Assembly: GCF_020085105.1 (NCBI RefSeq)
Contig: NC_058065.1
Coordinates: 4,757,718-4,821,717 of the forward strand
DNA length: 64,000 bases
Direction: 5' to 3'
Origin: Siniperca chuatsi
Lineage: Eukaryota; Chordata; Actinopteri; Centrarchiformes; Sinipercidae
Part shown: positions 2,131 to 55,015 of the stretch, in pieces
How positions within the stretch are numbered: the stretch's first letter is position 1
Layout of the letters: every line of letters starts with the position of its first letter
The notes under the pieces: generated by a model
What the model was told of the DNA's origin: nothing
Seen by the model: only the letters and a program-made list of their open reading frames with translations
The model's database searches: none
Position numbers and translations under genes: made by a program

Positions 2131-10286
<8,156 letters not shown>

Positions 10287-15570: not shown

Positions 15571-15586
15571 GAAGAGCGGACCTTAC
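15571..15586 (+). other. Putative primer-binding site, self-priming type
   Basis: The sequence after the 5' LTR (GAAGAGCGGACC) does not resemble the usual TGG-starting tRNA-complementary site. Bases 15573-15581 (AGAGCGGAC) are complementary at eight of nine positions to GTCCGGTCT, which lies exactly 30 bases after the first T of the TATA box in the 3' LTR, where the RNA should start. This fits the self-priming known from the Tf1/sushi group. Confidence 0.45.
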
Positions 15587-19670: not shown

Positions 19671-19685
19671 TGAAGGGGGGGGTAC
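19671..19685 (+). other. Polypurine tract
   Basis: A purine run (GAAGGGGGGGG) directly before TAC and the 3' LTR, the expected site of plus-strand priming. The second element has the same arrangement. Confidence 0.75.
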
Positions 19686-23308: not shown

Positions 23309-23429
23309 GCTGGTGAAGCGTCTGTGAACCACCTAGTCTGAGGAGTGTCTGCTTGTGCTGCCTACTGCACAATATATGCCTGTTCAGAGTACAGCAACAG
23401 TTCATTGTGAGGGTTGTTTGTTTTTCCTT

Positions 23430-28900: not shown

Positions 28901-31900
28901 TTTCTACTTTAAGTAGCTTTTGCTGATCATTCTGCAGTGTTTACACAGTAGGAAATTATTATAGTTTCTTAAGTAAAGGGCCTGAATTCCATCACCATCA
29001 TAACGACCAAGTGGAATTAACTAAACAAATATATACTGCACCAAATTTGTATACTAGTACATGCATATCATATATATTTTAAATACATTTAGACTTAAGC
29101 TTGTGTTCAGTGTATTTAACCCCAAGTTGCTCTGTTTCTGTCAATAATTCTACTTTCTCTCTTCTGTATGATTCATTTGTTTCAGCCTGGAACAGCAGGC
29201 ACAAATCAATACATTTTGATTTCCTCTTATCTCATCTCGCCCCGTTTCATCGCATGAAACACAGAAGTGAAAGTGAGTGACGATCTTACAGCAGCCGGCC
29301 TTTGACCTCCAGTCCTCCAGCCCGATGCTGCCCTTCAGGTTGCAGGACTTGGCGTAAGCCTCCAAAAACTGGCACTTGAGATCGTCCACCTCTGGGTATT
29401 TGCACAAAGTGTTTGTGCAGGCGGTTATGTAGGGCTCCGGGTCAGTGAGGCTGTGGCAAGCAGTGAAGGGCGCCTGCCTCATGAGATTACAGCTGTTCAC
29501 AGAGGAAGGATGAGAGTAAATGACCAGTTTTCTGAACAGAGTCATGGCACCTCAGGACTGTGTGATAAAGATGACTCGTTCCTGTTTTAAGGCTGACAGC
29601 AGTGTTCAGTGTGTGTTTGAATGGGTCAGTTCTTACTGTTCAGTTGCGAGGCTGCAGACGATCGTACTGTCAACGGTGTCGTTGGGCTGGCGCCGCAGCT
29701 AGGGGAGACAAACAGAGCGGCACATTCAATTTGAAACCCATACAACATCAATAAACAGGTAATATCAGTCAGTGCATTCATGTGGTTGTGACTGAGTTGT
29801 ACCCGAGTGCACTGTAAGAAGAGGACTTCTCTGCACTCAGGGTGGTGGTCTGACTGGCTTGAGTGGGGCTGCCACACAAGCCCTTTACAGCTCCAGCAGG
29901 TCCTGGCAGATGTCAAGAGACAAGACAAACCAATGAACTTTCAACCTAATAAGCACAGCTGGCATTCTTATATTCTGTAGTTTTCTGTACCTGCCACATG
30001 TGCGGTGTTGCCATCAAAAAAGACAGTCGCATTGAGGGAAAGTATCTTGGCAGTAACTCCAGTCTGGTCCTTGGAGAGCTCCACACCGTGGACCAGCTGA
30101 GCCGTGGTGCTGAGCGTTAGTATTTGGTCTTTAACCTACATCACAGCGGAAACACTGGCTGAAACATCACAAATACATCCATACATACATGTGCTTTGCA
30201 TGTGCGCTCGTTCCCACTTAAACAGGCTTTTTCACAGCAAGACTCAGTAAATGGCAATAATCTTTTGCTCAGATTACACCATCAAAATGTCTCCTCTCTT
30301 CACTCAAAGTTAAAATAACAGCTTCTAATTCTTTTCCTGGGAGAACGATGAAACAAGAGCCCACTGGAAAAGTAACAGATGACAGAAGACGTCAGCAAAT
30401 GAGAACATCGGTAAAAACAAATCATATTTTTGCTTTGTCACAATGTTCCTGTTGCACCAACGTTCATTAGTCACAGATGCAGAAATCCATCCATCAGAGG
30501 TAGAAATCCTCAAATGGCTGTTATTTACAAATGATGAAGATTTTGTAATTCTGGACAGGTTTGTACTCTGGTTCTGGTCCTTTTTGATTTGTCTATCTCT
30601 CTTCAGATAATGTATTTAAGTTGAACGCTCTGAAATCACTACACTGTAAGGTTCACATAAAAAAAAATTGTTTTCTGAGAACTTCTGAATGCATGGCTGT
30701 GCAGGATTTAGGCTGTAACCTAAATGTTTTAATAATCATTTATTATTCAAAAGTTCATTTTAAACAATGTTGGACAGATCATTCTACACCCACAGGTGCA
30801 GGAAACAGACCGCAGGATGATAGTGTGCATCTGGATCTTTAATTATCTCTCCATATAAAGGGGGTTGTATTAAAAACTACATTTGGCAGCTCTAGTTACT
30901 AGTCATGAGGAGTAAAATATGATACTAAACACTAGATACAAATCTAACTGATGAAATGAATTAATAACAACAAATAAAGATCTGTCACCTGAAAGCTGCC
31001 AAAGCCAAAGAAGAAGAAGTTTAAAGTTCGATTATTTTGCTACACATAAGTAAATATCATCACAAATAGATAATACTCTGACAATTAGTATGTAACAATT
31101 CAACACAAATACTGAGTTAATTGTAAAAAAAACTTTCCATTTCTATTTTACGCTGCTTTGTACTTCTGCCCCACTATAATTCAGAAAGGAAAGGTACCAC
31201 CACACCTGTCTATACTTTAAATACATCAACACAAAGTGACTCCTGGCATGTAATGATCTTCAGTGATTGGTCAAACCTTTGAAAACAACCCCATAAAAAC
31301 TCTGTTACTTGCTTTTAGATGGATTGTGGCAGCTTACCCGAACTCTTCCACCTTGTTCCAGGTACATGTTTACGCCTGTATCTTCCAGCCACAGTATCAA
31401 GTGGTCCAAAAATGGCACATCTTGACGCCGTCGCTCCATGAAACCGGCCAATAGGGTGAAATTCGAGCTTTTTTGAGGCTTCATCAGACCGTATACACAC
31501 CGGTCCGGGACAGAGTAGACTCTGCCGGAGAAATCGATGACAGTGGAGCCGGTCACAGTGCACACGGGAATGGGTTGTACGCACCTGATGGAGACGGAAA
31601 GGGACAGATGTTTTCTGTTTTTTATGGATCCTATGAAGATGTCATTTCCAGTTAATAGGAATCCTCACTTGAAAGTTAAAGGGGTACTCCACCAATTTTA
31701 CACCTAAAGGTCACTTTCCTCCTCGTCATGGGAAGAACTACTCAGCCTGTGAAAACACTTGTATAATGTCTTCTGTGGCTCTGGTGGAGCTTTCTAAAGT
31801 CTAAAAAAAACCAAAACTCTAAGATGAGAAATGTTTTGAGTTAGGCTGGGAAATGTAGGATCCAGCGTTTATTTAAGTTTGACTCTACTGGAGACTTAAA

Positions 31901-34900
31901 GTCAGGATATCTGGGCCTCTGCTGCTTCAGGTTTGACCATTTTTTATCAAGTGCCCCTACTTCATGGCTGTGCAATACTACCATACTGCGAGAGTGTGGA
32001 CAACAAGTGAAAAGGACTATCTGTATCTCTTAACTTTGAAGCAATATATGCAAACCAGAAGTGGGCAGTGCTATTGTGACGAAGACAAATGTTGTGACTG
32101 TAACAAACCTAACCGTAGATATATATCCATACAAATAATCTCACAAATCACTCAGTGACTTTAGATTAAAGAAAAACTGTGCAACTTCACACAGATTTTG
32201 AGGGTTATTGGAAAAAAAAGGCTGTATCGCAACCTCAGTCCAAGGGTGTACTGCTTGTAGTTATTAGTATTAATGGTGTCAAAGACGTCCAAGTCGTAAA
32301 GTAAAGACAAAACTCATCAGATAAGACATTCTTATCTGTTTAGAGTGAACCTGCTCATATCTGAATTAGAAGAGAAACAATTAGTCAGTTAATTGATAAA
32401 GTTATCGACAGAAAATGGAATGAATTGGTAATCAATTCACTGGTTCCTGCTTCTCAAATTTGAGGATCTGCTGCTATTTTGTACTGTTGGGCAGACAAAA
32501 CAAGAGATTTGAAAACATTACCCTGGGTTTCAGGCTACATTAGCCACTACTAGCATAACACACCTGGATCTCCAAAAGGACTGACAGCAGTTGAGTTGCA
32601 TTGTGGGTAATGTAGGTTTTGACAAGGAAGAAAAACTGTCCATCATGAGTCCGACAATGTTATTGAAGTGCTAAATCGTTGGAAATCTCTTTTAAGTTTT
32701 ATAGACTCAAAGATTAATCAGCTGATCAAAAAAATAGATAGATTTTTAGAAATAATATAATATAAAGAAAACATATTTACTTGTTGTTGCCCAGGCAGAC
32801 CTCCAGGGCTCCACATGTACTGACAGGAGAGAGGGATGCAGACGCATCACAGACTTGCATGGTGCAATTTTCTGAGTTCAGCTTCTTGTAACTTGAATTG
32901 ACTACAAAAGGGGCATCTGGGAGGTGATAGGAGGTTTATGAGATTAGTTTAATATTAAACTTCACCATCTAGTGTACAACATTTTAAAATATCACAGTTT
33001 GTTTTGAGGATCCCTGAAGAGTCCCAGCCCCTTCTTTGCCTACCTGAGATTCTGCATCCGCTCACGTCTATGTATTTCACTTCTGAAGATTTAGGAAACG
33101 ACCACGAACCCAGAGATGAGCTACCGACCGTTGCATTCAGGCTCTAGAAAAGGAATTGAAAAAAATCAAGATTAATAGTGTGATACTGTACTACTCTAAT
33201 ACTGAGTGAACACTGACTTGAAGCCCCCTTTTTATACGTGTATAAATATTTTTCTCCAATTTTAGGACAATTCAGTGGGACAGTGGGAGCAGTGGTGACC
33301 TAAGCATTGGATGAATGAGCCGACATATGACCAGACGGCAGCGGTTCAATTCCCAGACTGGCAAAGGCAAAGTCTAAGAGCAGCACTCGCCTGTGTGTAA
33401 TTATTCAAACTAATTATTCCTAATCAACCTTTCTGGACACTTTTAGTCTCCACCAACTCCTGAGAAAAGTATCTGGCTTTTTAGCTGCTAAATGTTCCAC
33501 TTTCTTCAGCTGCGAGTCAATACGTGTGTGTGTCTGCTGTTTGGTGCTGGGCAGGTAGTGTGCACTCAGTTTCTCTGAACAGCTGCCTGCTGCTGCTAAA
33601 AAACTCATCATTCTCTGTGGGTTGAGACTGTGAGTGAGCTCTCTCTTTTTACACAACGACTATTGTTAATATTCAAAAAATATACAGATTAGTGCTGTTT
33701 TTATTCAAAATACATTTTGGTTCACATTTCCTACACTCTCCATCTTATGTGGACGTAAATACCCTAAAAACAAAAGCTGACCGTCACTTTAATGTCACTG
33801 TCACTGTTCATTTAAAATCCAGCGTGCCAAGTACAGAGCAAACCATTGCATCACTGCATTGTATATCAGCAGTGAGTAACTGTTTCAAGCTCAATTCCTA
33901 AACTGCTAACCATCTCGTAGGATGCCCCAGTTTGTACCTCTCATATATTACCATTAGATTCAAGCCACAGATCTAAGCATTTCCCAATAATTACCCGGCA
34001 ACGTTTGAAAACCCAGAAGGTCACATGTGCCGCGCTTCTGGAGGAATTTCCAGAATCCGCTGCACAACAAAAAATACTTTTGAACCCATTTCACAAGTTG
34101 CCAGAAGTGACACGAGTCCTTGGTCTTTTTGTAAAACACAACCAAAATATTAAAAGAACCAAAACTTGTAAAGAGGAAAAACTCTTTTGTTGTTGTTGTT
34201 GTCCTGCTGCAGGTAGAATGTTTTAAATCAAGATGGTTAGAAGAGTCTTTGAGGATTCTTGTTAAACGACCTTCTGGGCTCATTTCTAGGATAACTGAAT
34301 GCTCGGGTCACATTACTCAGCTGTAATGGTGCAATACACGAGAGGAACAAACTGGGTCTCCTCTCAGGGATGAGACTCTGTGAAATCCAGTGGTTAACCT
34401 CTGGCTGACAGCTGGAGTCTGACATCACAGCCTGAGGTTGGGATCAAGTTAACTTGCCATAAAGCAGAATGGTTGAAGGACATAAGTTGCCATGGTAACA
34501 GGCTCATCTCTGAGACCAAAGTTAGGTCTTCCATATACTTACATAAGTAGCTGAAGTATATACATCAGAATATGTCAGGCTTGCCATAACTGTTTGTGCG
34601 CCAAAGCTGTAGAAAATAACACCGATCTGAAAGCATAAACAGACAAGACACAGAAAATATTAGGAAATGGCTTCCAAAATATGTTAGAAATAAACTTTGA
34701 TTTGAAGTTCCTTTGCCACACGATGTCTCTGAAATGTTCATTTTGTACAAAAGGCTGGACAGTCAGTCGATCTAAAAACATGGAACTGATGATCACTCAC
34801 ATATGATTTCAAATTTCCATCCTGTAAGTAAAATTGAACAGCGCAGTCTGAAGTGGTCTTGATGTTTGGCACAGCTAGATGAATGGCTGATCCAGGACTT

Positions 34901-37522
34901 GTTTTGGCAGTAAACACGTTCACATCCAATCTGTCCACAGTCAGCTGATCTTTTATCAAAACACAGTCTGTTGGAGTTTCAGTTGCGGGCTCTTTGAAAC
35001 AAATGACAGCAGATGAATCTTTGAACGACACCTGCAAAAACAGAGAGACACCATACATGAATTACTCCAAAATAAAATGAGTTCAAGTCAACAATGACAT
35101 CAAAACATCTTCATCATTTTGGTGCAAAACCTTTCAGTCCAGCAAGTCTTCACACCTAAACCACAAAATATGTCGTTTTTTTACTCGTATGAGCAGTTTT
35201 GCAATAGAGAGAATAAATAGATGTTCACAGCGAGCTGGGGGGAAATTTAGAGATTTGTGGGCAATATTGGGTTCTATAAAAAATCTGACAGGTCAGAAGA
35301 TTATTACCAGTATAGGATACAATCAAAAATACACTCTGCAACACAAAATTCAGTTTTATAAATAATTATTGCATTTTTAAATACTGGATAGTTTTACTCT
35401 TTGAGGCTGATAAGAATTCGGTAATGCTCGAATGCTCTTGCGGCTCTGTTACTTCCTCATACTTTCCTAATAATTTCTTGGAGGTTTCCTGGAAAGAACT
35501 ATGCAGTTTGAATATTGATCACAGGGAAAATAAACACAATGTTCTGAGACTGCTGTTTCAGTTAGCTCAGTTAGTTGTGTTGAGTTTAATAACTTTCTTG
35601 AAAGAACTGCTCCATTTAAAGCCAAGTACCCAGTATTTATTCATCTTTCATCGATTATTGGAAACTTTATTTTTCATACATGTTGAGTTGAACACTTGCC
35701 TGCTGACAAGTTGCACATCTTTGTATGTTCAGCTGAGCTGCTACACACTGACTAAAAGAATTGAAGTTACGCTAGCTTGTATGCTAGTATGCTTTCAGTA
35801 TCACTCTGCAGCTGGAGTTAAGTTTGCCTTGGGTTAGTTTGCAGTGTTGCTAACATTAATGTGCAGAAGGGCCACATCGTAGGTGCGCTCATTAAATAAC
35901 AAGGCATGCACAGCAGCTGGAACTCAGCCTCTGCGGCAGCTGTTGGTAATTTACTCTGCACATCATTTATCGGCCAGCAGAGGACAGCGCTGCCTTGCTA
36001 ATGGACTTAAACCTGCTGTTTCAGCTTCAGAGACGCCTCTTGCCTGTACACTGTCATGCTATTTCACTGCTGTTCGCACTACGTTGCACAGTGTAATCTG
36101 CATGTAGTTTTAGTTAAGCAGCTTGCATGTTTCATGTGTACTGTATACATTTCTTGTGTTATTTACAGTTATCTCTTTCTTGTATATTATTCTGATTTCA
36201 TACAGAAGGACTTCTTCCCCATCAGTTGTGCAGAAGGAATGTGGTTGTGGTGCTGAAATAAAGGCTCTGGCATTGAAGACATCTGTGTGGTTCTGATTGA
36301 TCTCTTGCAGCAGGTGACTATTTAAGTTAATCGTGCACAGAAACAGCAGGGAAGCTACAACCTGCTCACACTATACATTAACTATTAAGCTTGTGACAAG
36401 GCGTCACAATTGCATTTTTTAAGCAAAATTTGGAATGCAGGACCTTTACTTGTAACAGAGTATTTGCAGTATTGCTACTTTTACTTTGAAAGATCGGAGT
36501 ACTTCTTCTACCACTGCAGGCTGCTGCTGTAGCTTCATTTTACTGTACAGACATGAGAGTGATGCCACACTTCTCATCTAACTCTCAGCAAGAAAAGCAA
36601 ATGAGCGCATTTCCCAAAACGCTGAACTCTTTATTGAACTGTCGCTGAAATGTGTGTTAGAAATCTTCGCTAACAGACAGTCACCAGCAGTCAAACAGTC
36701 TGTCTGTTAGATACAGTAACAACAGCAGAGTGAAAGACAAGCCTTTTCTCAAACATGTTTCATTTTACTCACATCCAACATGGAGTATTTGCGTCCATAA
36801 AAGGTGATGGGACACGAGCTGATGTTCTTCACTCCAGAATTAACAATAACTGCAGCAGACAGAAGGTCAACCTGGCTGGCAGCAACTACAGCGTGAATGT
36901 GAAGGGAAAAGAAATGAGACATCATACATCAATCTATCAAGACCAACTTTCTTTCTTTTCATTCCCAAGTCACACCTCTGACTTCAAATGGCATTGATCA
37001 CGGCAAGGATTTCTGAGTGTAAAAGACTGAATGAATTAATAAAATACATACTCAGACTGTAGAACATATTTTCCATCATCACTACAGGAGCTGGCTTCAT
37101 TCTGAGGGTTTTATTTTATTCAGAAATGTGAGGACTTAAAGGTTAAGCGCCTCATGAAGAAGTGGAGCAATAAACTGAATCTAGTGCAAAATCTCTCCAG
37201 TGAAACAAAATTGCCCCAACTTGACTTACTTAAGTTGATTCAAAGGTGCCCTTACCCTTATTCATTTATAATGATTCCATGGATGAGCATATGTTTTTAA
37301 AAAGGTATCATTCAGGCACATTTTGTATTGGAAATTAGCACAATATAGACAAATCGTTCCAGGGAAGAAATGTGTAAAATAAAATCTCTTGTAGGGCCTG
37401 CTACATGTTGAAAATGTAGGCCAGTCATCAGATGCCTTTAAAATAAGGGTTCTAGTCTAAAGCACTTTTCACTGGCTCAGCTTACCTGCCAGAAGGAGAA
37501 GCAGAGCACCCGGCTTCGCCAT
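25933..37522 (-). CDS. VWD-C8-ZP domain secreted protein, copy A (complete exon set, frameshift in exon 9)
   Basis: Secreted alpha-tectorin/uromodulin-like protein; ZP domains polymerise into extracellular matrices or coats. Sixteen exons on the minus strand: 37522-37486, 36885-36773, 35031-34801, 33143-33044, 32916-32781, 31584-31338, 30135-29991, 29902-29803, 29698-29637, 29492-29290, 28604-28473, 27705-27518, 27297-27143, 27037-26792, 26708-26546, 26028-25933. Signal peptide (MAKPGALLLLLA); an unrecognised Cys-containing N-terminal region (to about 205); VWD (about 206-390, CTVTGSTVIDFSG); C8 (CNLMRQAPFTACH); a TIL/EGF-like segment; ZP (about 503-753); RRRRSSR, a furin-type site, then a short tail without a membrane segment. 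Would be 784 residues, but exon 9 is 62 bases against 63 in copy B, which shifts the frame and leads to a stop in exon 10. So it is a pseudogene unless the base is a sequencing error. Paralog name unknown. Confidence 0.85.
36520..36640 (-). repeat. Inverted fragment of the AAAGGAATAGTTTG repeat in intron 2 of copy A
   Basis: In reverse complement it reads TTTTGGGAAATGCGCTCATT, then CTTGCTGAGAGTTAGATGAG and ATGAAGCTACAGCAGC, matching the element at 4621-4905. The same fragment is in copy B at about 52840-52965, so it predates the duplication. Confidence 0.6.
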
Positions 37523-38525
37523 GATGGAGCCCCGGCAGTAACCTGTCGGAGAGCTGGGAGAGATACAGCTCACATAGTGAAATCCATACAAATACAGGGA
37601 GGGAGGGATAGTATTCATGATTTGATTGATGAGAGTTTTAATGCCTTTCTTGCATGCTGCATAGGGTTATTAAAAAAAGCAATTTACTGTATCTAAAATC
37701 CCTTAAATGAACCCTTAAGTTGTGGCTTATTCACAAACTTAGTTTGACTGCAAAAGGCTCCATGTGAACTCTTTTAGATGAGGCCCACGCAGTCGCACTG
37801 AGCAAAGGTGATAAATGCAGATTGTGAGCGGACATTAGTGGCCGTAACTCAGTGATCACATCACGTTGAGTACATTATTATCAGCAGCACTAGCAGTGTC
37901 TAATTTTAATTTTTTATCATCCAATGAAGCCATTTTACATTTTGCTCACACTTCCCTCCTGCGTCTGAGTGTGTCAAACGTAAAGGCCATGAGGAAACAG
38001 AGAAGTGGTTGATGTTGTAAGGAACTTTAGTTTCACTGTAAAACATAACAAGAGTAAATCATCAGATTAAGAGAATTTAAACAAAATGGGAACAACAAGA
38101 AACTTTTTTAAAGCTTTTTAAAATGTGGCACAAACTCAGCTGATCTGACACTGAGGGGGAGTTTATTCCACTGCGTTCGAGCTGATAGACTAAAAGCTTT
38201 TTCTTAAACCTGGACCGGGAAACCTTTAACAACATTTGGTGTAGAATAAGGAGCTAAGAGATCAGAAATAAGCTGTGGAGGCTTTGAAAGTAATCAGAAG
38301 AATCTTACAAGTCTAAAATGAATAGCAATGTAATGTATTGTGTGACTATTATATAAGAATAAAATAGAGAAGTGATACATTTAAGTGCACTTTCTTAATT
38401 GAGTTGGCATGATGCATCTTTATAGAACCAGCAGGATTTCAAAGATCTCCAGTCATCCTGTAAGTGCATAAGCATCGTCCACATGAAGCCAGACAGAGAG
38501 AGGAAGAGCGTGCAGCCGGTCTTAC

Positions 38526-38680
38526 CGTCTGGAGGTCGGGTGGAGCAGCAGGGAGATGAAGCTCTGCAGATGGAGGTCGGTGTCGAACCTGTCTCAGGTT
38601 CAGCTCTCGGGCAGATGTGCCTGCTGTGTGTCTCTATCTGTCGCTTTTTACGCAGGTCCTTCTCGTTCACGCCCCTGAAG
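38526..38680 (-). other. Probable non-coding first exon of ZP copy A
   Basis: On the minus strand CCACCCGACCTCCAGACG is followed by a good donor (GTAAGACC), and the next good acceptor (CTCTCCCAG at about 37553) lies 30 bases before the start codon. The same donor is in copy B. The open frame across this exon (start near 38670) is not in frame with the signal peptide, so it would be 5' UTR. The 5' limit is a guess. Confidence 0.35.
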
Positions 38681-39487
38681 ACTTATGTAAGATTTACACA
38701 TTCTTAAAAAGTTTGGACTCCCCAAACTGGCTTTTTGTCACCTGCAGCAGTCCATTGAGTAACTGTGCTTTTCTCTGGTATTATTTTCCGAAAAATGCAG
38801 TAAGTGACTGTCAGTAAGTAAGAACAATTAACGAGCTTTGAGAAGCCCTGGAGAAAAATACTTTGCCTATGAGACCTGGTCCATATGAACAAGTGAAACA
38901 TTTTTCTTAACATTATTTTATGGTGAATCTGTTTCAGCATAAACACAATTTCTCAAATACTGACACAAAGGCTTTTACATTGTTATAGAGGATGGAGAAA
39001 CTAATATCCTAAATTCAGCAAAATTCTCTCTGGTGTTTGGTTTAAATGCTCAGAGTAAATAATAGCTTGTATTATTGAAGTAAAAGCGTTAGTTTCCATA
39101 TTATTCAAACCCCAGTCTGTTTTGTTACATTGCATTGTGGTCCGACTGCTCCTGTGAGCTCTGATGGATTATTTAATGTATGGATTGTTGATAAAAATTG
39201 GTGCCCCACAAAGAAGCCCCTCACCTTTTGATTCCAAATAAAAACATGCAGTGAACTTTCGATGTTTTAGATCCCTGAAGCATTTCCTGCTGTCAGATTC
39301 CACTAAAGCTGCTGGAAACACCCGGAGGTTACGGTGGCATTGTCCGCGTTCTAGATGAGTGTATCTACAGGGAGGTACATACAGTAAATCAGACTACTGA
39401 CTGGTGCCCACAGAGTCAAGTTTGGGGAAAGAGGGCCTTTACAGGTGCAGTGTTGCACGGTCGAGCTGTTTCACTGTTGTGTTTTCT

Positions 39488-40220
39488 CTTCATGTGATGG
39501 GAACTGGGACTTCTATACTGGAATTCTCAAAGTTAAAAGACACTGTTGATACTCTGTATATTTACTTTTTAACAGACACGGCCTATTTTACACATGCGCA
39601 CGATTTGTTGATTTATTTTCCAAATCATAATACAATATAGGAGACAACTAGCAAATACTGTCATTAAAAAAGTAATCCTTAATAATTAATAATAATCCAT
39701 AATATTAATGTAATATTTTGTGTTTTGAGATAAAGAATGGTAATTTTTTATTTGACCACATTTTACAGCTGACAGCCCAAACAGAACTAATTCATCAGTG
39801 TCATCAGTTCAGCATCATGTTCATTTCTACAAATTTCTACAAATTTAGGGAAAGTCGTAAGGTATCAAGGTGATAAAATAATGTACAGTATGTTTTACGA
39901 GATGTTACGGAGGGTTTGAATGAGAGAAACGGATCACTCTAAGCATTCGCACCAAACCCAGAGAGATTTTTGCTGAATCATCAGACCTGTTTAGCAGCAT
40001 CGTGCTACCTCTCCATCCCAGGGTAGAAAAAGCGTGGGTTCTTACAATCAGCATGCATAAAATCAAACACTTAATTCCTGATTCCAATCTACGCTGATGC
40101 ACAAAAAGGCACAAATTCTTCCTGTTACGATGAACATATATGGACATTACTGGACTGCCCCTTTGATACACCACATGTACACAATGCTGTTTCTGTACAT
40201 AAAACAAACTGTTGTTTCTG
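39488..40220. repeat. Insert specific to unit A, with an inverted copy of 42110-42305
   Basis: Unit B jumps from the equivalent of 39480 to that of 40230 through a different short stretch. The first 160 bases of the insert are the reverse complement of 42110-42305 (for example GATTTGTTGATTTATTT and TATAGGAGACAAC), and the later part (TTTACAGCTGACAGCCCAAAC, TTCCTGTTACGATGAACA) matches 59045-59130. It looks like a composite dispersed repeat; type unknown. Confidence 0.5.
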
Positions 40221-41612
40221 TTTTAAAGAAATTAAATCAACATGTGAGCGTCAGAGTTCGGATGTGTCCCATTCTCCCTGATGGGAAATGAGGCTGTAAA
40301 GACTTCACTAAATAGTTGTCTGTGTTATTTATTTATTGGTTATGATGCTTTAGTGAATTGTTCACACTCTAGGACTTGACCCTTGACCCCATGAAGACAG
40401 AACGATTAGTAACATGGTTTGATTTGATTAAAACTTGAGTAAAAGTTACTCTGAGTAAATCTTTGTTGTTGTACTTCAGTAGTTTGTAAAAATGCATCAC
40501 ATGGTTTCAAATATTTCATTTTCCAGTTGAGCAGGTTCCCCCTTTATGATCTCTGCTGTCTTTCACCTCTGTTTTCTTGGCAGACTTAAATCTGTCCTCC
40601 GCTTTCACACGCCCATCACTGGACTTAAAATAGTGACCTTTGACGTGTTTATCCTGAGGGGGTTTCAGGTGCAATTACAGAAACCAGTTTGTGCAAATGT
40701 CGTGCCACAAATACCTTCCTTGGTTTTATTTGTGACCATTTTTGAAATTACTTTTTAAACTTTTTCTAAATCAACAGAGTAGAGAAAAGGGCCAATTACA
40801 AATACCACTAACAATAATCATGAAAATAATATGTACTGTGCTTTTAACCAATCCCCCCCCTAAAGGAAAGGGTCGAACCTAAATACTACTGCTACTAAAA
40901 ATAACAAGTACTGTACACATAACTCACATCTGGAAATTAAATCCAGAGAATTATTCATTCATATGCACCTACATGAGAAAAGACCAAATCAAACTCGTAA
41001 AATAAATGTTGTGTATGTAGTAGCGTTGGATATAAATTTCCTCTTGTGCCCGTGATAAGATCAGCCTTTGTTGATCCTCAGAGGAGAAATTCAGGAATTG
41101 CAGCAGCACAAGAACACAAATCAGTCCAGATAAACTGAGACACTTATTAAATAGATAATTACAAGTATATGAAATATAATAACAATAGAAATAACAATAT
41201 AAACTATTAAAGAGCATTTTAACCCAAACTTACAAGGCAAGCTGTACACATACAGTACACATACAGTACAGTACCCACGAACAGTGTTGTACTTAAACTA
41301 ATACTGCAGTGCTGTCTCAAGTGAGGTGACACAGTGGTGAGATTAGTAACAGCAAAGTATAGTACATGTAAGAGTAATATGATACCATCTACTGTAACAG
41401 CGTACAGCAGATTAATATATATGATTAAGTAAAAATACTTTTCCTTTTCTCCTGATAGTATTTTCATTTTGAGATTATAGATTTAGATAATTGTATATCA
41501 GAACAGACAGATAAACAGGAATAGATAAACAAAATAGCAACGTATCATGCATCGCTGCCTCAAACCAAAGTAACATTTCAGTCAGGTGCTCCCCCATCTG
41601 TCTCTCTCTGTA

Positions 41613-41704
41613 TGTTGGGCGTGGTCTCCCCTCCTGTCTCCTGGCTCCTCTGAACACCTGTCTGCAATCAGCTCTTCACCACTCCCAGCTGGCTCACCTG
41701 CCTT
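41613..41704 (+). repeat. Truncated LTR-like sequence in unit A
   Basis: Matches the first 92 bases of 57475-57913 (TGTTGGGCGTGGTCTCCCCT onward) and then breaks off. Unit A therefore lost the rest by a deletion after duplication, or unit B regained it. Confidence 0.6.
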
Positions 41705-42365
41705 TGTTATTGTACTTTAGTATTTTATAAAAGTAATCATCAAAATAACTCGAGTTGAGAAAAATACAAAAGTATTTACTGAAAAATAACTTGAGCAGCA
41801 AGTAAATGAAAATCAAAAAGAAAAAACACCATCAGTAGTGCCTTTTCCCTGGAAAAGACTGGAATTATTTCAACCACAGATGATCTTCCTCAGTTAAAGG
41901 TAAAAAAGTGAACAGAAATGTATTTGTGATTAAATAACAAGTCATCATCTCCTGATTAGATAGCCTGTCACAAATATAATAAAGGTAAAACAGAAAAATT
42001 CCAGTCTTTATCTCTCAAGTGTGATCACAAAATACTACATTAATATTATACTCTATTAAGAACACCAATGAGTAAAGGAATACTTTTTTTTTGTTTAAAT
42101 TTGCTTGTTGTCTCCTATATTCTATTATGATTTGGCAAATAAATCAACAAATCATGCGCATGTGTATAATAGACCACTGTGTCTATTAAAAAGTAAATAT
42201 AAAGAGTGTCAGCAGTGTCCTTTAACTTTGATAATTCCAGTATAGACGTCCCAAGTCCCAGTTCCCATCACAGACAGCCACAGATGTGAGCCCATCACAT
42301 GAAGAGAATAAGACACCGCTGTCTTACATCCTGCGTCTGACTTTGTGGAAAATACAATTTGATTT

Positions 42366-42419
42366 ATTTACTTATTCATGAATATATCACAATCCTTCAT
42401 TAACATGGGCCAAATAGCC
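42366..42419. other. Unique 54-bp joint between the tandem units
   Basis: Sequence between the end of unit A homology and the start of unit B homology; it matches neither the left flank of unit A nor the right flank of unit B. It marks the duplication breakpoint. Confidence 0.75.
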
Positions 42420-42819
42420 GCATTATGTATTAATTATATAGCACAGAAACAAATCATCGTTTCAAACAAGTTGATTTAAATTGAAAACAGGCTGAAATAT
42501 TGTTGACACACAGCAAAACAAGGTCTTTAGGACAGAAATGATTTTGTAACATTGGAGTTTTACAAAGTACTAGAATCAGCTCCACCTCAGCCAGCTACAA
42601 CAACACTGCTGCTCACATATTAATGCATCAATGATAATAATCCTATCACACCATGAAAGGAACCATTCAGCATAACGAGCACTTGTCCTTTTGTTAAAGT
42701 ACAATTTGCTGATAATACTTCTGTACTTATGCAGGACTTTTCCTTGTAATGGAGTATTTTTACATTGTTGTATTACTACTTTGACTTTAGTAAAGCAGTA
42801 TTTCCTCCACCCTGCTTAC

Positions 42820-45800
42820 CTGAGCACAGGAATGGCCCTGTGTGGCGCACAGCTCCAGTTTGCAGTGCAGGTAGATTTCGCCGCTTTTCCCAGAGAACTG
42901 GAACATGTTGAAAGAGAAGGAGTTGGACGTTCCCAGTCCGTTTCCCTCCACCTTCACCGTCTGGTCTTCGGGGTTCGGGCATCTGCTCAGAAACAGGAAG
43001 ACGGTCATGATGACTTCATCAGCAGTAAAGCCACTGACAAAGTCTCAGTTTGAGCTTTGTCTCACCCGTTAATGACGAGGTTGTATCGCAGAGTATCAGT
43101 AGGTGACCGCTGGTTGGTTGCCCAGCAGGAGTCGGTCACCAAGGCGACCATGCTGCCGTCCAGGCCCTCCGTCTTCAGCTCCACCCAGATCTTCTGGTTC
43201 AGCCCGATCTCAGTGTCCGGCCCGACAAGGTCCGTGCGGCCGGCGTTGGTGTAGGCGTTCATCATCAGAGTGTAATTCCAAACTCCAGATACAACCTGCT
43301 GCACCACAGAGCTGGAGAGCACAGACACACACACTTCAGCTGTCTTAAACTTTAACTACAACAAGCTTCAGTCAGCACATTAACAACCAGGTGAAGCTCA
43401 GCCGGCCTGCACACACCCATCTTTGATCTTGAAGGCCACGCTCTTGACGTCTGGCTTGGTGTAGAAGCAGGAGAAGTCGATGTATACTTGGTCGTTGCGG
43501 GTGATGATGCCGGAGCTGGTACTCATCTTGATGGCGTTCTTGTAGATGATTTGGTTGTCGTTCGTCTAGATTGCGAAAGGAACACAGACATGTTTTCAGG
43601 TGAAGAAAAACTCGCATGCCTGATGAAGCCCTTTCCTGGAAGCCTAACCTTTCCTGTAAATAACAATTTATGGCAGCCTGGCTGAGGCTCATTACTTTGC
43701 CATTACAGTCTACAGGGAAGTGACCAGCAAAAACAGCATGTGTGTTTGTACTTGTTGAGAGCAAAGAACTAGAGGAGAGTACCCACCGTAACCTCCGTCC
43801 CGCAGGTGTTGCTGCCGTCGAAGCTGAAGGTCACCATGTGGGTCTGCTGGTCCATGTAACCTTTGCACTTCTGGTCATTGAGCTGTAAGGCGGAGTAGTC
43901 GATGCCATTGTCCTCCAGCAGACATCCAGCCAGAGCGAGAGTGGCAGAGTTCTTCATGCAGACTGTCGGCTCGCCTGAACACCCAACAGGACAAAGAAGC
44001 AAAACCATCACCACTTCAAGATGGATTTATTTGGGGCCGAGGTACTCAGTAAGCAACAGCTGGTTTGTGCTGATCTTTTTTTTAAATTTACAAACATTTC
44101 TTTGATTCGGAGCTATTATGGAGGCACAAACACGTCCCGTTTTGAATTAAACACTAATCTGTGACAAGAGAGGAGCGCAGCGACAAAACCCAAAACAGCT
44201 GTGCCTTTGCCAGATGTTTGCATATCTAAATCAATTAGCATCTTTTAGGTGTATCAGCAGGTGGTTTTCCAGTCACATGCTCTTCTGTTCTCTGTCATTT
44301 GTACAATGTTCTATAGAAATATAATCCAGAATATCTGGTTCCTGTTTTTCCTGTAATTTAGAATGCAGATAAGTTAATGAGCCAAACAAATTCAAATTCC
44401 CCACTAGCTGTAGTCTGTCAAATGTAGAGAGTTAAAACTTTACATGTAAAGAATTTCTTTCAGAATATTTACTTTGAAAAACATCTAACAACAAGAACTG
44501 TTAATCTTCTCATAACAGATCAAAAAATGATGTACCAAGATAAAAGAAAGCCAACTCTACTGGTTGGTGATTTGCTATAACAATTTAAATAAATAAATAT
44601 AACCACATTCAGTAGCTGTGGTCAGGAGGGAATCATCAAATTGATCCTGATGATTTTGTCTAATGCTGCAGGACGTCTGGATCAACTCTCCCTCTGAAGA
44701 AACATTACAACCCTTAACGGTGTCTTTTCATGCCACGGTTGTTGCACAGTACCTAAAGTGTTTGTCGGTTTGTACTTGGAGGCAAAAATGGCCCGACAGT
44801 AGCAGCGGGTTCCACCGAGCTTCTCGCCGCAGAACTCATGAGGGCTGCAGTACTGGTCCTGACAGAAGGCCTGAGGGACAGCAGCTACAGACAGACACAC
44901 AGACACATGATGAGCTTCACTATCAAGTGTAGGATGAATGACATGAACATCTTAAAAAGGTTTTTTTTTTTTTGCTTCTTTATACTTCTAATTCCCACTG
45001 CATTTATTTGACAGCTATAGCTACTTGTTACTTTTCAGATCAAGATTATACATACAAAACATGTCATGATCTTATGAAATGTGGTGCATTATTATAGATT
45101 TAGTAAAAAAGATATATTTAAATAACACCAGATTAAAAAAACCATTTAAAATGAACATTAAAATGCTGCTTACATTGCTACATATTTCTACTTTAAGTAG
45201 CTTTTGCTGATCATTCTGCAGTGTTTACACAGTAGTAAATTATTATAGTTTCTTAAGAAAAAGTGCCTGAATTCCATCACCATCGTAACGACCAAGTGGA
45301 ATTAACTAAACAAATATATACTGCACCAAATTTGTATACTAGTATATGTATATCATATATATTTTAAATACATTTAGACTTAAGCTTGTGTTCAGTGTAT
45401 TTAACCCCAAGTTGCTCTGTTTCTGTCAATAATTCTACTTTCTCTCTTCTGTATGATTCATTTGTTTCAGCCTGGAACAGCAGGCACAAATCAATACATT
45501 TTGATTTCCTCATCTCATCTCATCTCGCCCCGTTTCATCGCATGAAACACAGAAGTGAAAGTGAGTGACGATCTTACAGCAGCCGGCCTTTGACCTCCAG
45601 TCCTCCAGCCCGATGCTGCCCTTCAGGTTGCAGGACTTGGCGTAAGCCTCCAAAAACTGGCACTTGAGATCGTCCACCTCTGGGTATTTGCACAAAGTGT
45701 TTGTGCAGGCGGTTATGTAGGGCTCCGGGTCAGTGAGGCTGTGGCAAGCAGTGAAGGGCGCCTGCCTCATGAGATTACAGCTGTTCACAGAGGAAGGATG

Positions 45801-48800
45801 AGAGTAAATGACCAGTTTTCTGAACAGAGTCATGGCACCTCAGGACTGTGTGATAAAGATGACTCGTTCCTGTTTTAAGGCTGACAGCAGTGTTCAGTGT
45901 GTGTTTGAATGGGTCAGTTCTTACTGTTCAGTTGCGAGGCTGCAGACGATCGTACTGTCAACGGTGTCGTTGGGCTGACGCTCGCAGCTAGGGGGAGACA
46001 AACAGAGCGGCACATTCAATTTGAAACCCATACAACATCAATAAACAGATAATATCAGTCAGTGCATTCATGTGGTTGTGACTGAGTTGTACCCGAGTGC
46101 ACTGTAAGAAGAGGACTTCTCTGCACTCAGGGTGGTGGTCTGACTGGCTTGAGTGGGGCTGCCACACAAGCCCTTTACAGCTCCAGCAGGTCCTGGCAGA
46201 TGTCAAGAGACAAGACAAACCAATGAACTTTCAACCTAATAAGCACAGCTGGCATTCTTATATTCTGTAGTTTTCTGTACCTGCCACATGTGCGGTGTTG
46301 CCATCAAAAAAGACAGTCGCATTGAGGGAAAGTATCTTGGCAGTAACTCCAGTCTGGTCCTTGGAGAGCTCCACACCGTGGACCAGCTGAGCCGTGGTGC
46401 TGAGCGTTAGTATTTGGTCTTTAACCTACATCACAGCGGAAACACTGGCTGAAACATCACAAATACATCCATACATGTGCTTTGCATGTGCGCTCGTTCC
46501 CACTTAAACAGGCTTTTTCACAGCAAGACTCAGTAAATGGCAATAATCTTTTGCTCAGATTACACCATCAAAATGTCTCCTCTCTTCACTCAAAGTTAAA
46601 ATAACAGCTTCTAATTCTTTTCCTGGGAGAACGATGAAACAAGAGCACACTGAAAAAGTAACAGATGACAGAAGACGTCAGCAAATGAGAACATCGGTAA
46701 AAAACAAATCATATTTTTGCTTTGTCACAATGTTCCTGTTGCACCAACGTTCATTAGTCACAGATGCAGAAATCCATCCATCAGAGGTAGAAATCCTCAA
46801 ATGGCTGTTATTTACAAATGATGAAGATTTTGTAATTCTGGACAGGTTTGTACTCTGGTTCTGGTCATTTTTGATTTGTCTATCTCTCTTCAGATAATGT
46901 ATTTAAGTTGAATGCTCTGAAATCACTACACTGTAAGGTTCACATAAAAAAATGTTGTTTTCTGAGAACTTCTGAATGCATGGCTGTGCAGGATTTAGGC
47001 TGTAACCTAAATGTTTTGTTTGTGTTGCTCAATAAAACATTTATTATTCAAAAGTTCATTTCCAACAATGTTGGACAGATCATTCTACACCCACAGGTGC
47101 AGGAAACAGACCGCAGGATGATAGTGTGCATCTGGATCTTTAATTATCTCTCCATATAAAGGGGGTTGTATTAAAAACTACATTTGGCAGCTCTAGTTAC
47201 TAGTCATGAGGAGTAAAATATGATATAAACACTAGATACAAATCTAACTGATGAAATGAATTAATAACAACAAATAAAGATCTGTCACCTGAAAGCTGCC
47301 AAAGCCAAAGAAGAAGAAGTTTAAAGTTCGATTATTTTGCTACACATGAGTAAATATCATCACAAATAGATAATACTCTGACAATTAGTATGTAACAATT
47401 CAACACAAATACTGAGTTAATTGTAAAAAAAAACACTTTCCATTTCTATTTTATGCTGCTTTGTACTTCTGCCCCACTATAATTCAGAAAGGAAAGGTAC
47501 CACCACACCTGTCTATACTTTAAATACATCAACACAAAGTGACTCCTGGCATGTAATGATCTTCAGTGATTGGTCAAACCTTTGAAAACAACCCCATAAA
47601 AACTCTGTTACTTGCTTTTTAGATGGATTGTGGCAGCTTACCCGAACTCTTCCACCTTGTTCCAGGTACATGTTTACGCCTGTATCTTCCAGCCACAGTA
47701 TCAAGTGGTCCAAAAACGGCACATCTTGACGCCGTCGCTCCATGAAACCGGCCAATAGGGTGAAATTCGAGCTTTTTTGAGGCTTCATCAGACCGTATAC
47801 ACACCGGTCCGGGACAGAGTAGACTCTGCCAGAGAAATCGATGACAGTGGAGCCGGTCACAGTGCACACGGGAATGGGTTGTACGCACCTGATGGAGATG
47901 GAAAGGGACAGATGTTTTCCGTCTTTTATGGATCCTATGAAGATGTCATTTTCAGTTAATAGGAATCCTCACTTGAAAGTTAAAGGGGTACTCCACCAAT
48001 TTTACACCTAAAGGTCACTTTCCTCCTCGTCATGGGAAGAACTACTCAGCCTGTGAAAACACTTGTATAATGTCTTCTGTGGCTCTGGTGGAGCTTTCTA
48101 AAGTCTAAAAAAAACCAAAACTCTAAGATGAGAAATGTTTTGAGTTAGGCTGGGAAATGTAGGATCCAGCGTTTATTTAAGTTTGACTCTACTGGAGACT
48201 TAAAGTCAGGATATCTGGGCCTCTGCTGCTTCAGGTTTGACCATTTTTTATCAAGTGCCCCTACTTCATGGATGTGCAATACTACCATACTGCGAGAGTG
48301 TGGACAACAAGTGAAAAGGCCTATCTGTATCTCTTAACTTTGAAGCAATATATGCAAACCAGAAGTGGGCAGTGCTATTGTGACGAAGACAAATGTTGTG
48401 ACTGTAACAAACCTAACCGTAGATATATATCCATACAAATAATCTCACAAATCACTCAGTGACTTTAGATTAAAGAAAAACTGTGCAACTTCACACAGAT
48501 TTTGAGGGTTATTGGATAAAAAAGGCTGTATCGCAACCTCAGTCCAAGGGTGTACTGCTTGTAGTTATTAGTATTAATGGTGTCAAAGACGTCCAAGTCG
48601 TAAAGTAAAGACAAAACTCATCAGATAAGACATTCTTATCTGTTTAGAGTGAACCTGCTCATATCTGAATTAGAAGTGAAACAATTAGTCAGTTAATTGA
48701 TAAAGTGATCGGCAGAAAATGGAATGAATTGGTAATCAATTCACTGGTTCCTGCTTCTCAAATGTGAGGATCTGCTGCTATTTTGTACTGTTGGGCAGAC

Positions 48801-51800
48801 AAAACAAGAGATTTGAAAACATTACCCTGGGTTTCAGACTACATTAGCCGCTACTAGCATAACACACCTGGATCTCCAAAAGGACTGACAGCAGTTGAGT
48901 TGCATTGTGGGTAATGTAGGTTTTGACAAGGAAGAAAAACTGTCCATCGTGAGTCCGACAATGTTATTGAAGTGCTAAATTGTTGGAAATCTCTTTTAAG
49001 TTTTATAGACTGAAAGATTAATCAGCTGATCAAAAAAATAGATAGATTTTTCGAAATAATATAATATAAAGAAAACATATTTACTTGTTGTTGCCCAGGC
49101 AGACCTCCAGGGCTCCACATGTACTGACAGGAGTGGTGGATGCAGACGCATCACAGACTTGCATGGAGCATTTTTCTGAGTTCAGCTTCTTGTAACTTGA
49201 ATTGACTACAAAAGGGGCATCTGGGAGGTGATGGGAGGTTTATGACATTAGTTTAATATTAAACATCACCATCTAGTGTACAACATTTTAGAGAAGGAAA
49301 CAACAGAAATTTTAAAATATCACAATTTGTTTTGAGGATCCCTGAAGAGTCCCAGCCCCTTCTTTGCCTACCTGAGATTCTGCATCCGCTCACGTCCATG
49401 TATTTCACTTCTGAAGATTTAGGAAACGACCACGAACCCATAGATGAGCTACCGACCGTTGCATTCAGGCTCTAGAAAAGGAAATGACAAAAATCAAGAT
49501 TAATAGTGTGATACTGTACTACTCTAATACTGAGTGAACACTGACTTGAATCCCCCTTTTTATACGTGTATAAATATTTTTCTCCAATTTTAGGACAATT
49601 CAGTGGGACAGTGGGAGCAGTGGTGACCTAAGCATTGGATGAATGAGCCGACATATGACCAGACGGCAGCGGTTCAATTCCCAGACTGGCAAAGGCAAAG
49701 TCTAAGAGCAGCACTCGCCTGTGTGTAATTATTCAAACTAATTATTCCTAATCAACCTTTTTGGACACTTTTAGTCTCCACCAACTCCTGAGAAACGTAT
49801 CTGGCTTTTTAGCTGCTAAATGTTCCACTTTCTTCAGCTGCGAGTCAATACGTGTGTGTGTCTGCTGTTTGGTGCTGGGCAGGTAGTGTGCACTCAGTTT
49901 CTCTGAACAGCTGCCTGCTGCTGCTAAAAAACTCATCATTCTCTGTGGGTTGAGACTGTGAGTGACACAACGACTATTGTTAATATTCAAGAAATATACA
50001 GATTAGTGCTGTTTTTATTCAAAATACATTTTGGTTCACAATTCCTACACTCTCCATCTTATGTGGACGTAAATACCTTAAAAACAAAAGCTGACCGTCA
50101 CTTTAATGTCATTGTCACTGTTCATTTAAAATCCAGCGTGCCGAGTACAGAGCAAACCATTGCATCACTGCATTGTATATCAGCAGTGAGTAACTGTTTC
50201 AAGCTCAATTCCTAAACTGCTAACCATCTCGTAGGATGCCCCAGTTTGTACCTCTCATATATTACCATTAGATTCAAGCCACAGATCTAAGCATTTCCCA
50301 ATAATTACCCGGCAACGTTTGAAAACCCAGAAGGTCACATGTGCCGCGCTTCTGGAGGAATTTCCAGAATCCGCTGCACAACAAAAAATACTTTTGAACC
50401 CATTTCACAAGTTGCCAGCAGCCAGAAGTGACACGAGTCCTTGGTCTTTTTGTAAAACACAACCAGAATATTAAAAGAACCAAAACTTGGAAAGAGGAAA
50501 AAAATCTTTTGTTGTTGTTGTTGTCCTGCTGCAGGTAGAATGTTTTAAATCAAGATGGTTAGAAGAGTCTTTGAGGATTCTTGTTAAACGACCTTCTGGG
50601 CTCATTTCTAGGATAACTGAATGCTCGGGTCACATTACTCAGCTGTAATGGTGCAATACACGAGAGGAACAAACTGGGTCTCCTCTCAGGGATGAGACTC
50701 TGTGAAATCCAGTGGTTAACCTCTGGCTGACAGCTGGAGTCTGACATCACAGCCTGAGGTTGGGATCAAGTTAACTTGCCATAAAGCAGAATGGTTGAAG
50801 GACATAAGTTGCCATAGTAACAGGCTCATCTCTGAGACCAAAGTTAGGTCTTCCATATACTTACATAAGTAGCTGAAGTATATGGAGAATATGTCATGCT
50901 TGCCATAACTGTTTGTGCGCCAAAGCTGTAGAAAAAACACCGATCTGAAAGCATAAACAGACAAACAGACAAATATTAGGAAATGGCTTCCAAAATATGT
51001 TAGAAATAAACTTTGATTTGAAGTTCCTTTGCCACACGATGTTCCTGAAATGTTCATTTTGTACAAAAGGCTGGACAGTCAGTCGATCTAAAAACATGGA
51101 ACTGATGATCACTCACATATAGTTTGAAACGTCTATCCTGTAAGTAAAATTGAACTAGGCAGTCTGAAGTGGTCTTGATGTTTGGCAGAGCTAGATGAAC
51201 GTCTGATCCAGGACCTGTTTCAACAGTTGATACGCTCACATCCATTCTGTCCATAGTCAGCTGATCTTTTATCAAAACACAGTCTGTTGGAGTTTCAGTT
51301 TTGGACTCTTTGAAACAAATGACAGCAGATGAATCTTTGAACGACACCTGCAAAAACAGAGAGACACCATACATGAATTACTCCAAAATAAAATGAGTTC
51401 AAGTCAATAATGACATCAAAACATCTTCATCATTTTGGTGCAAAACCTTTCAGTCCAGCAAGTCTTCACACCTAAACCACAAAATATGTCGTTTTTTTAC
51501 TCGTATGAGCAGTTTTGCAATAGAGAGAATAAACAGATGTTCACAGCGAGCTGGGGGGAAATTTGGAGATTTGTGGGCAATATTGGGTTCTATAAAAAAT
51601 CTGACAGGTCAGAAGATTATTACCAGTGTAGGATACAATCAAAAATACACTCTGCAACACAAAATTCAGTTTTTTAAATAATTATTGCATTTTTAAATAC
51701 TGGATAGTTTTACTCTTTGAGGCTGATAAGAATTCAGTAATGCTCGAATGCTCTTGCGGCTCTGTTACTTCCTCATACTTTCCTAATAATTTCTTGGAGG

Positions 51801-53847
51801 TTTCCTGGAAAGAACTATGCAGTTTGAATATTGATCACATGGAAAATAAACACAATGTTCTGAGACTGCTGTTTCAGTTAGCTCAGTTAGTTGTGTTGAG
51901 TTTAATAACTTTCTTGAAAGAACTGCTCCATTTAAAGCCAAGTACCCAGTATTTATTCATCTTTCATCGATTATTGGAAACTTTATTTTTCATACATGTT
52001 GAGTTGAACACTTGCCTGCTGACAAGTTGCACATCTTTGTATGTTCAGCTGAGCTGCTACACACTGACTGAAAGAATTGAAGTTACGCTAGCTTGTATGC
52101 TAGTATGCTTTCAGTATCACTCTGCAGCTGGAGTTAAGTTTGCTTTGGGTTAGTTTGCAGTGTTGCTAACATTAATGTGCAGAAGGGCCACATCGTAGGT
52201 GCGCTCATTAAATAACAAGGCATGCACAGCAGCTGGAACTCAGCCTCTGCAGCAGCCGTTGGTGATTTACCCTGCACATAATTTATCGGCCAGCAGAGGA
52301 CAGCGCTGCCTTGCTAATGGACTTAAACCTGCTGTTTCAGCTTCAGAGACGCCTCTTGCCTGTACACTGTCATGCTATTTCACTGCTGTTTGCACTACGT
52401 TGCACAGTGTAATCTGCATGTAGTTTTAGTCAAGCAGCTTGCATGTTTCATGTGTACTGTATACATTTCTTGTGTTATTTACAGTTATCTCTTTCTTGTA
52501 TATTATTCTGATTTCATACAGAAGCACTTCTTCCCCATCAGTTGTGCAGAAGGAATGTGGTTGTGGTGCTGAAATAAAGGCTCTGGCATTGAAGACATCT
52601 GTGTGGTTCTGATTGATCTCTTGCAGCAGGTGACTATTTAAGTTAATCCTGCACAGAAACAGCAGGGAAGCTACAACCTGCTCACACTATACATGAACTA
52701 TTAAGTTTGTCACAAGGGGTCACAATTGCATCGTTTTAAGCAAAATTTGGAATGCAGGACCTTTACTTGTAACAGAGTATTTCTATGCTGCAGTATTGCT
52801 ACTTTTACTTTGAAAGATCGGAGTACTTCTTCTCCCACTGCAGGCTGCTGCTGTAGCTTCATCTTTACTGTACAGACATGAGAGTGATGCCACACTTCTC
52901 ATCTAACTCTCAGCAAGAAAAGCAAATGAGCGCATTTCCCAAAACGTTGAACTCTTTATTGAACTGTCGCTGAAATGTGTGTTAGATATCTTCGCTAACA
53001 GACAGTCACCAGCAGTCAAACAGTCTGTCTGTTAGATACAGTAACAACAGCAGAGGGAAAGACAAGCCTTTTCTCAAACATGTTTCATTTTACTCACATC
53101 CACCATGGAGTATTTGCGTCCATAAAAGGTGATGGGACACGAGCTGATGTTCTTCACTCCAGAATTAACAATAATTTCAGCAGACAGAAGGTCAACCTGG
53201 CTGGCAGCAACTACAGCGTGAATGTGAAGGGAAAAGAAATGAGACATCATACATCAATCTATCAAGACCAACTTTCTTTCTCTTCATTCCCAAGTCACAC
53301 CTCTGACTTCAAATGGCATTGATCACGGCAAGGATTTCTGGGTGTAAAAGACTGAATGAATTAATAAAATAAATACTCAGACTGTAGAACATATTTTCCA
53401 TCATCACTACAGGAGCTTGCTTCATTCTGAGGGTTTTATTTTATTCAGAAATGTGAGGACTTAAAGGTTAAGCGCCTCATGAAGAAGTGGAGCAATAAAC
53501 TGAATCTAGTGCAAAATCTCTCCAGTGAAACAAAATTGCCCCAACTTGACTTACTTAAGTTGATTCAAAGGTGCCCTTACCCTTATTCATTTATAATGAT
53601 TCCATGGATGAGCATATGTTTTTAAAAAGGTATCATTCAGGCACATTTTGTATTGGAAATTAGCACAATATAGACAAATCGTTCCAGGGAAGAAATGTGT
53701 AAAATAAAATCTCTTGTAGGGCCTGCTACATGTTGAAAATGTAGGCCAGTCATCAGATGCCTTTAAAATAAGGGTTCTAGTCTAAAGCACTTTTCACTGG
53801 CTCAGCTTACCTGCCAGAAGGAGAAGCAGAGCACCCGGCTTCGCCAT
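42820..53847 (-). CDS. VWD-C8-ZP domain secreted protein, copy B (open frame, no terminal exon)
   Basis: Tandem paralog of copy A with the same domain order. Fifteen exons on the minus strand: 53847-53811, 53210-53098, 51347-51117, 49471-49372, 49220-49085, 47888-47642, 46425-46281, 46192-46093, 45987-45925, 45780-45578, 44884-44753, 43974-43787, 43565-43417, 43311-43066, 42982-42820: 751 codons in one uninterrupted frame with matching phases. Exon 9 has the full 63 bases (GCERQPNDTVDSTIVCSLATE). Exon 13 is 6 bases shorter than in copy A, in frame. Exon 15 ends after GHSCAQ at a good donor (GTAAGC) in phase 0. Nothing like exon 16 of copy A lies downstream before copy A itself, so it lacks a furin-type site and stop. 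Reading into the intron would add ten residues (VSRVEEILLY) and stop. The N-terminal exons differ strongly from copy A, the VWD to TIL exons hardly at all. Confidence 0.82.
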
Positions 53848-54856: not shown

Positions 54857-55015
54857 CGGCTGGAGGTCGGGTGGAGCAGCAGGGAGATGAAGCTCTGCAG
54901 ATGGAGGTCGGTGTCGAACCTGTCTCAGGTTCAGCTCTCGGGCAGATGTGCCTGCTGTGTGTCTCTTTCTGTCGCTTTTTACGCAGGTCCTTCTCGTTCA
55001 CGCCCCTGAAGACTT
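54857..55015 (-). other. Probable non-coding first exon of ZP copy B
   Basis: Same donor (GTAAGACC after CTCCAGCCG) and position relative to the coding start as in copy A; the 5' limit is unknown. Confidence 0.35.

Follow-up and report, generated by a model that had tools for sequence, protein, structure and literature searches.

Organization of the locus

The window analyzed here, a 64,000-nucleotide stretch of the mandarin fish Siniperca chuatsi genome (C24:4757718-4821717 of the 718.8-Mb assembly), contains two copies (A and B) of a gene whose product is a secreted protein composed of a signal peptide, an N-terminal beta domain (about 170 residues), a VWD-C8 region and a ZP module. The family consists of five near-identical gene copies in this fish: A and B in the window, C (C24:4840227-4829330) and D (C24:4856635-4846282) further along the same contig, and E on C17 (4959273-4948562); the latter three were located by a genome search with the ZP family, after which their DNA was extracted. 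Comparison of the five coding sequences indicates that the N-terminal module encoded by exons 2-6, most densely in exon 3, is very likely subject to recurrent diversifying selection among the copies, whereas the VWD-C8-ZP part, judging by the codon models, is constrained.

Copies A and B lie head to tail on the minus strand and share a 17-exon layout, of which B retains exons 1-16. Copy A (25930..37522) was delineated by splice sites and reading frames, and the same exon columns yield the D and E database proteins letter for letter (the D translation is identical to LOC122871757 and that of E to LOC122864393). Exon 1 (37522-37486) is followed by exons 2-6 of the fast-changing module (32781..36885; exons at 36885-36773, 35031-34801, 34626-34543, 33143-33044 and 32916-32781), by the conserved exons 7-12 that encode VWD and C8 (28473..31584; 31584-31338, 30135-29991, 29902-29803, 29698-29637, 29492-29290 and 28604-28473) and by exons 13-17 (25930..27705; 27705-27518, 27297-27143, 27037-26792, 26708-26546 and 26028-25930) that encode ZP-N, ZP-C and, as seen in the exon 17 translation, a basic RRRR motif close to the end. 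Copy B (42820..53847), traced by alignment to A, extends from exon 1 (53847-53811) to exon 16 (42982-42820). Pfam matches obtained with exons 5-16 of copy B are to VWD (2.1e-6), C8 (7e-17), ZP-N (5.6e-16) and ZP-C (2e-29); a TIL domain, which a previous reading of the DNA by a model that saw the sequence only (hereinafter the sequence-only reading) had listed alongside VWD and C8, is not among them. Copies C, D and E are intact, with open reading over 808, 809 and 806 residues, respectively, and standard splice sites.

Self-comparison of the window resolves two tandem units, A (26146..42365) and B (42420..58925), and alignment of the edges places the left end of unit B inside intron 16. Both copies are damaged as assembled. 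In exon 10 of copy A, a base that is present in B, C, D and E is missing (29694..29695, minus strand), resulting in a frameshift outside any homopolymer. Exon 4 of copy B is also frameshifted, by a one-base deletion in a T run (six T, compared with seven in copy C; 50936..50937, minus strand). No exon 17 of copy B was found, the matches on the C24 stretch being confined to A, C and D; this loss of the end of the ZP part follows from the break of unit B in intron 16. On this sequence evidence, A and B are probably not both full-length genes. The doubt is only partial because a homopolymer error could account for the frameshift in B, and transcripts of B might acquire exon 17 of A by splicing. 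Indeed, both copies are on one strand (25930-53847), with B upstream of A, an arrangement in which such splicing could in principle occur. A gap of 100 N is located just beyond the window end, between copies B and C (C24:4823151-4823250), and therefore further array sequence could be absent from the assembly.

The two units could also be an assembly artefact, with two haplotypes placed side by side and frameshifts that are sequencing errors. The low divergence of the A and B introns (1.5%), the T run at the B frameshift and the gap just past the window are all compatible with this explanation. However, the window itself contains no N, unit B breaks off within intron 16, with exon 17 missing, the deletion in copy A is not in a homopolymer, and C, D and E are separate loci that display the same pattern. 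An artefact is unlikely and, in any case, the selection result is independent of A and B.

Diversifying selection in the N-terminal module

The sequence-only reading had described a burst of amino acid change in exon 3 between the two tandem copies, and the underlying counts are confirmed. Exon 3 of copy A (34801..35031, minus strand) and exon 3 of copy B (51117..51347, minus strand; identified by comparison with copy A and by the genome search with exon 3) differ at 25 of 231 bases, with 17 of 77 residues replaced and a single purely silent codon change, GTG/GTA. The flanking introns are nearly identical (27 differences in 1741 bases of intron 2 and 8 in 172 of intron 3), and the excess of changes at exon 3 replacement sites over introns is significant (p about 1e-12). 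The 827 bases reported as almost unchanged correspond to exons 7, 8, 9, 11 and 12 in the present numbering (247+145+100+203+132) and indeed contain only two differences, both silent; this set omits exon 10, the one with the copy A frameshift. Likewise, the "about nine" further replacements without a silent change match exons 2, 4 and 6, and across exons 2, 4, 5 and 6, 11 codons carry replacements, the length differs by 3 bases and there are no silent changes. The expectation that dN/dS would exceed 1 was borne out for exons 2-6 but not significantly for exon 3 of A and B alone (dN 0.130, dS 0.076, ratio 1.7, p 0.24 by the Nei-Gojobori count), because several of the codons have changed at more than one base.

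The same pattern extends to all five copies. Averaged over the 10 pairs, replacement and silent divergence are 0.101 and 0.037 in exons 2-6 and 0.144 and 0.059 in exon 3, compared with 0.010 and 0.034 in exons 7-12 and 0.023 and 0.039 in exons 13-17. In exons 2-6, replacement divergence exceeds silent divergence in every pair (p 0.0003-0.034) and exceeds intron divergence in every pair (p<3e-7), whereas silent divergence does not differ from that of introns in any pair (p>=0.29). A codon model in our own implementation (best of 15 topologies, with p-values against an omega of 1) gives, for the five copies, omega values of 4.09 for exons 2-6 (p 1.4e-7), 4.12 for exon 3 (p 5e-5), 0.31 for exons 7-12 (p 0.001) and 0.54 for exons 13-17 (p 0.04). 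The signal is not confined to one exon, as had been proposed: exons 2, 4, 5 and 6 without exon 3 yield an omega of 4.32 (p 1.7e-4). When the analysis is restricted to the intact copies C, D and E, the values are 4.30 for exon 3 (p 0.0013), 3.45 for exons 2-6 (p 5.6e-5) and 0.36 for exons 7-12 (p 0.008). The selection characterizes the family and is evident in its intact members.

The frameshifts in A and B and the lack of exon 17 in B bring up the alternative of relaxed constraint, under which these two copies are decaying pseudogenes and exon 3 has merely drifted. This explanation is extremely unlikely. Exons 2-6 change faster than introns in all 10 pairs, which is impossible by drift; the intact copies show the same pattern; and exons 7-12 of A and B contain no replacements in 669 sites, against 1.5% divergence in introns (p 1e-4).

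Several points nevertheless weigh against diversifying selection of the N-terminal module. The two copies in the window are broken as assembled, A by the exon 10 frameshift and B by the exon 4 frameshift and the lack of exon 17. For exon 3 alone, replacement exceeds silent divergence at p<0.05 in only 3 of the 10 pairs (AC, CD and CE), and when codons changed at more than one base are dropped, this level is reached in 8 of the 10 pairs for exons 2-6 and in none for exon 3; moreover, there is dependence among the 10 pairs, and p-values of codon models can be inflated by recombination. When models M1a and M2a are compared for exons 2-6, p is near 1e-28 on two topologies and about a quarter of the sites fall in the fast class, but these values are inflated by recombination and clustered changes, and therefore the most weight is placed on the pair counts.

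Across the five copies, residues vary at 67 of 221 positions in exons 2-6 (30 of 77 in exon 3); exons 7-12 have 14 variable positions among 296, and exons 13-17 have 28 among 281. A high-confidence structure was predicted for the N-terminal domain, and in the model of copy D the variable clusters (residues 82-95, 99-104 and 114-131) would be located in strands and the intervening loops. Sequons 33, 45, 86 and 204 are variably present among the copies whereas sequons 157 and 194 are constant. Comparison of the N-terminal domain with solved structures yielded no trustworthy match; for the ZP module, the nearest structures are GP2 and uromodulin.

Exchange among the copies

Among 131 informative sites between exons 1 and 16, conflict is found in 27% of the pairs less than 50 bases apart and in 55-65% of those farther apart, and neighboring informative sites agree in 79 of 130 cases, compared with a shuffled mean of 56 (permutation p 0.0005). 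Given these site patterns, it is highly likely that short-tract gene conversion operates among the copies, which look like mosaics. Exon 3 of B has one motif in common with E, on another chromosome, and another motif in common with C. Convergence under selection could add to such motif sharing, so that homoplasy is possible in exon 3.

The sequence-only reading had also considered conversion from an unseen paralog, and the A/B differences could indeed be explained by one-step replacement of exon 3 in one copy from a diverged donor, without selection. The differences are densely packed, with an abrupt onset at base 43 of the exon, the copies are mosaics, and the A/B pair is the only one of the 10 in which exon 3 silent change exceeds that of introns at p<0.05 (p 0.0099). 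Yet the search of the assembly with exon 3 returned five matches, which are copies A-E, and no further donor. The excess is found in all 10 pairs rather than in A/B alone, and exons 2, 4, 5 and 6 by themselves have an omega of 4.3. A neutral donor would add a proportionate number of silent changes, whereas silent divergence in exons 2-6 equals that of introns in all pairs. Wholesale import of exon 3 is therefore very unlikely, and the comparison of the known copies indicates that variants are shuffled among them, with no import of a foreign exon. Altogether, the original observation is confirmed, and its interpretation is supported in part: the sequences uphold diversifying selection of the N-terminal module, with the scaffold conserved, but not the single-exon donor.

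Two further candidates were rejected. A conversion tract reaching past exon 3 in copy B was suggested by intron 3 (8 differences in 172 bases, p 0.004), but 6 of the 8 mismatches fall within one small complex indel. GC-biased conversion behind the exon 3 differences was dismissed given that the GC content of this exon ranges from 0.398 to 0.420 over the five copies, with no outlier.

Relatives of the family

The search retrieved 332 relatives at E<=1e-10, and 424 were retrieved with a tilapia member as the query; the best 120 of each set were inspected. Among 131 full-length relatives, 909 close pairs were compared, defined by a C-terminal divergence of at most 30%; in these, divergence of the part corresponding to exons 2-6 exceeds that of the rest by a factor of 1.8 to 7, depending on the bin.

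Alpha-tectorin contains a NIDO domain and several VWD domains, IgGFc-binding protein has an IgGFc-binding N-terminal domain, and egg-coat ZP proteins are made in the ovary or liver and are part of the egg envelope. The window family differs from alpha-tectorin, zonadhesin, uromodulin and GP2: Pfam at E<=1 gives one VWD and no NIDO, there is no Pfam match to MAM, and in none of 30 N-terminal members was a Pfam match to the IgGFc-binding N-terminal domain detected at E<=1.

The cichlid seminal plasma protein SPP120 is among the closest known counterparts. Sperm plasma glycoprotein 120 (A7TYC0) aligns to copy D over its full length, with 47% identity, and this alignment together with the Pfam matches indicates that the window family has the SPP120 combination of VWD, C8 and ZP with an N-terminal region. 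According to the excerpts of PMC6302530, sperm are immobilized by the N-terminal region of SPP120, homopolymer formation requires vWD, codon models back positive selection in all groups, many of the several copies are pseudogenes in some groups, and the gene evolved via gene conversion. Positive selection that includes the N-terminal region and conversion among copies are both found in the window family, the latter from conflict versus distance and from the permutation, with possible homoplasy in exon 3. In cichlids, sites in vWD are selected as well (PMC6302530, in excerpt), in contrast to the conserved exons 7-12 of the window family.

In a midpoint-rooted tree of 39 proteins (38 of 179 relatives and copy C), C, D and E fall outside the SPP120 clade, in a 13-row clade with proteins from Sebastes, Dicentrarchus, stickleback and others, whereas SPP120 belongs to a 17-row clade with another S. 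chuatsi protein, an alpha-tectorin-like isoform X3 (support 100/100 for both clades). The window family is thus, on the tree and domain evidence, an SPP120 paralog, similar to SPP120 in build and evolution but not SPP120 itself. The alpha-tectorin-like protein has the same architecture as the window family but is encoded on a different chromosome (contig of 24,671,900 bases) and is 57% identical to SPP120; it clusters with cichlid SPP120 although the excerpts of PMC6302530 state that SPP120 occurs only in cichlids. Abalone VERL, discussed in the same excerpts, is also a ZP-type fertilization protein with repeats shaped by gene conversion; it is, however, an egg protein with internal repeats whereas the window family varies as whole gene copies, in a non-ZP N-terminal domain.

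No paper was found on LOC122871757, LOC122864393, or alpha-tectorin with male-biased testis expression in fish, and none of the titles listed is specific to the locus; the excerpted text of a 2026 review of ZP proteins (PMC13361971) does not mention SPP120.

Other features in the window

The window also contains two Ty3/gypsy long terminal repeat retroelements in opposite orientations (15523-19749, plus strand, and 60018-63098, minus strand) that are about 86-89% alike where aligned. The right element has a 1026-codon open frame with matches to reverse transcriptase, RNase H, integrase and chromodomain; the coding region of the left element is interrupted and spread over several frames. At 6965-8833 (plus strand), there are exons of a neurotransmitter-gated ion channel subunit, with Pfam matches to the ligand-binding and transmembrane domains, and an open frame at 22865-23332 (minus strand) matches short-chain dehydrogenases.

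Functional implications

The kinship with SPP120 makes a gamete-linked role plausible, and by this analogy a role in semen or at the sperm surface would be the most likely function, with about an even chance of being correct. Sperm binding and immobilizing activity are credited to the tilapia protein in the excerpts of PMC4273931. The N-terminal domain might meet a changing partner while the scaffold polymerizes, as reported for cichlid SPP120. Two observations tell against such a role: the genes of the window family are not SPP120 orthologs, and transcripts of a-tectorin-like and seminal plasma glycoprotein 120 are among the genes changed in killifish diapause (PMC4657215, in excerpt), so that the family is not necessarily restricted to semen. 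The same selection could have a different cause if the binding partners of the N-terminal domain are microbes or mucosal targets rather than sperm. Many relatives among the matches listed carry the automatic names IgGFc-binding protein-like, zonadhesin-like and GP2-like, and the GP2 and uromodulin structures nearest to the ZP module point in the same direction; however, the relative that has been studied experimentally is a protein of the seminal plasma, and its N-terminal region acts on sperm (PMC6302530, in excerpt). Binding to microbes or mucosal targets appears doubtful, though it is a serious contender.

Taken as a whole, the explanation that combines a five-copy secreted family, diversifying selection of the N-terminal module, a constrained VWD-C8-ZP part, short-tract conversion and semen as the most likely site of function seems a good deal more probable than not. 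A more elaborate and rather speculative scheme would regard the N-terminal domain as a recognition domain of unsolved fold within a percomorph multi-locus repertoire, in which short-tract conversion, even between chromosomes, reassorts the selected motifs on a fixed scaffold, and damaged copies such as A and B serve as variant reservoirs.

This kind of selection is known, given that N-terminal selection, conversion and pseudogenes are in print for SPP120, but the lineage is new: SPP120-type architecture and N-terminal selection are now found beyond cichlids, in a separate paralog clade in the mandarin fish, and across the 131 full-length relatives the N-terminus is fast and the remainder slow. 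The locus provides a clean example of selection that can be assigned to particular exons, the introns serving as the neutral reference, and three intact copies that can be compared in a farmed species. If C, D or E is expressed in the testis, a fast-evolving, sperm-acting domain carried on a polymer would become testable outside cichlids.

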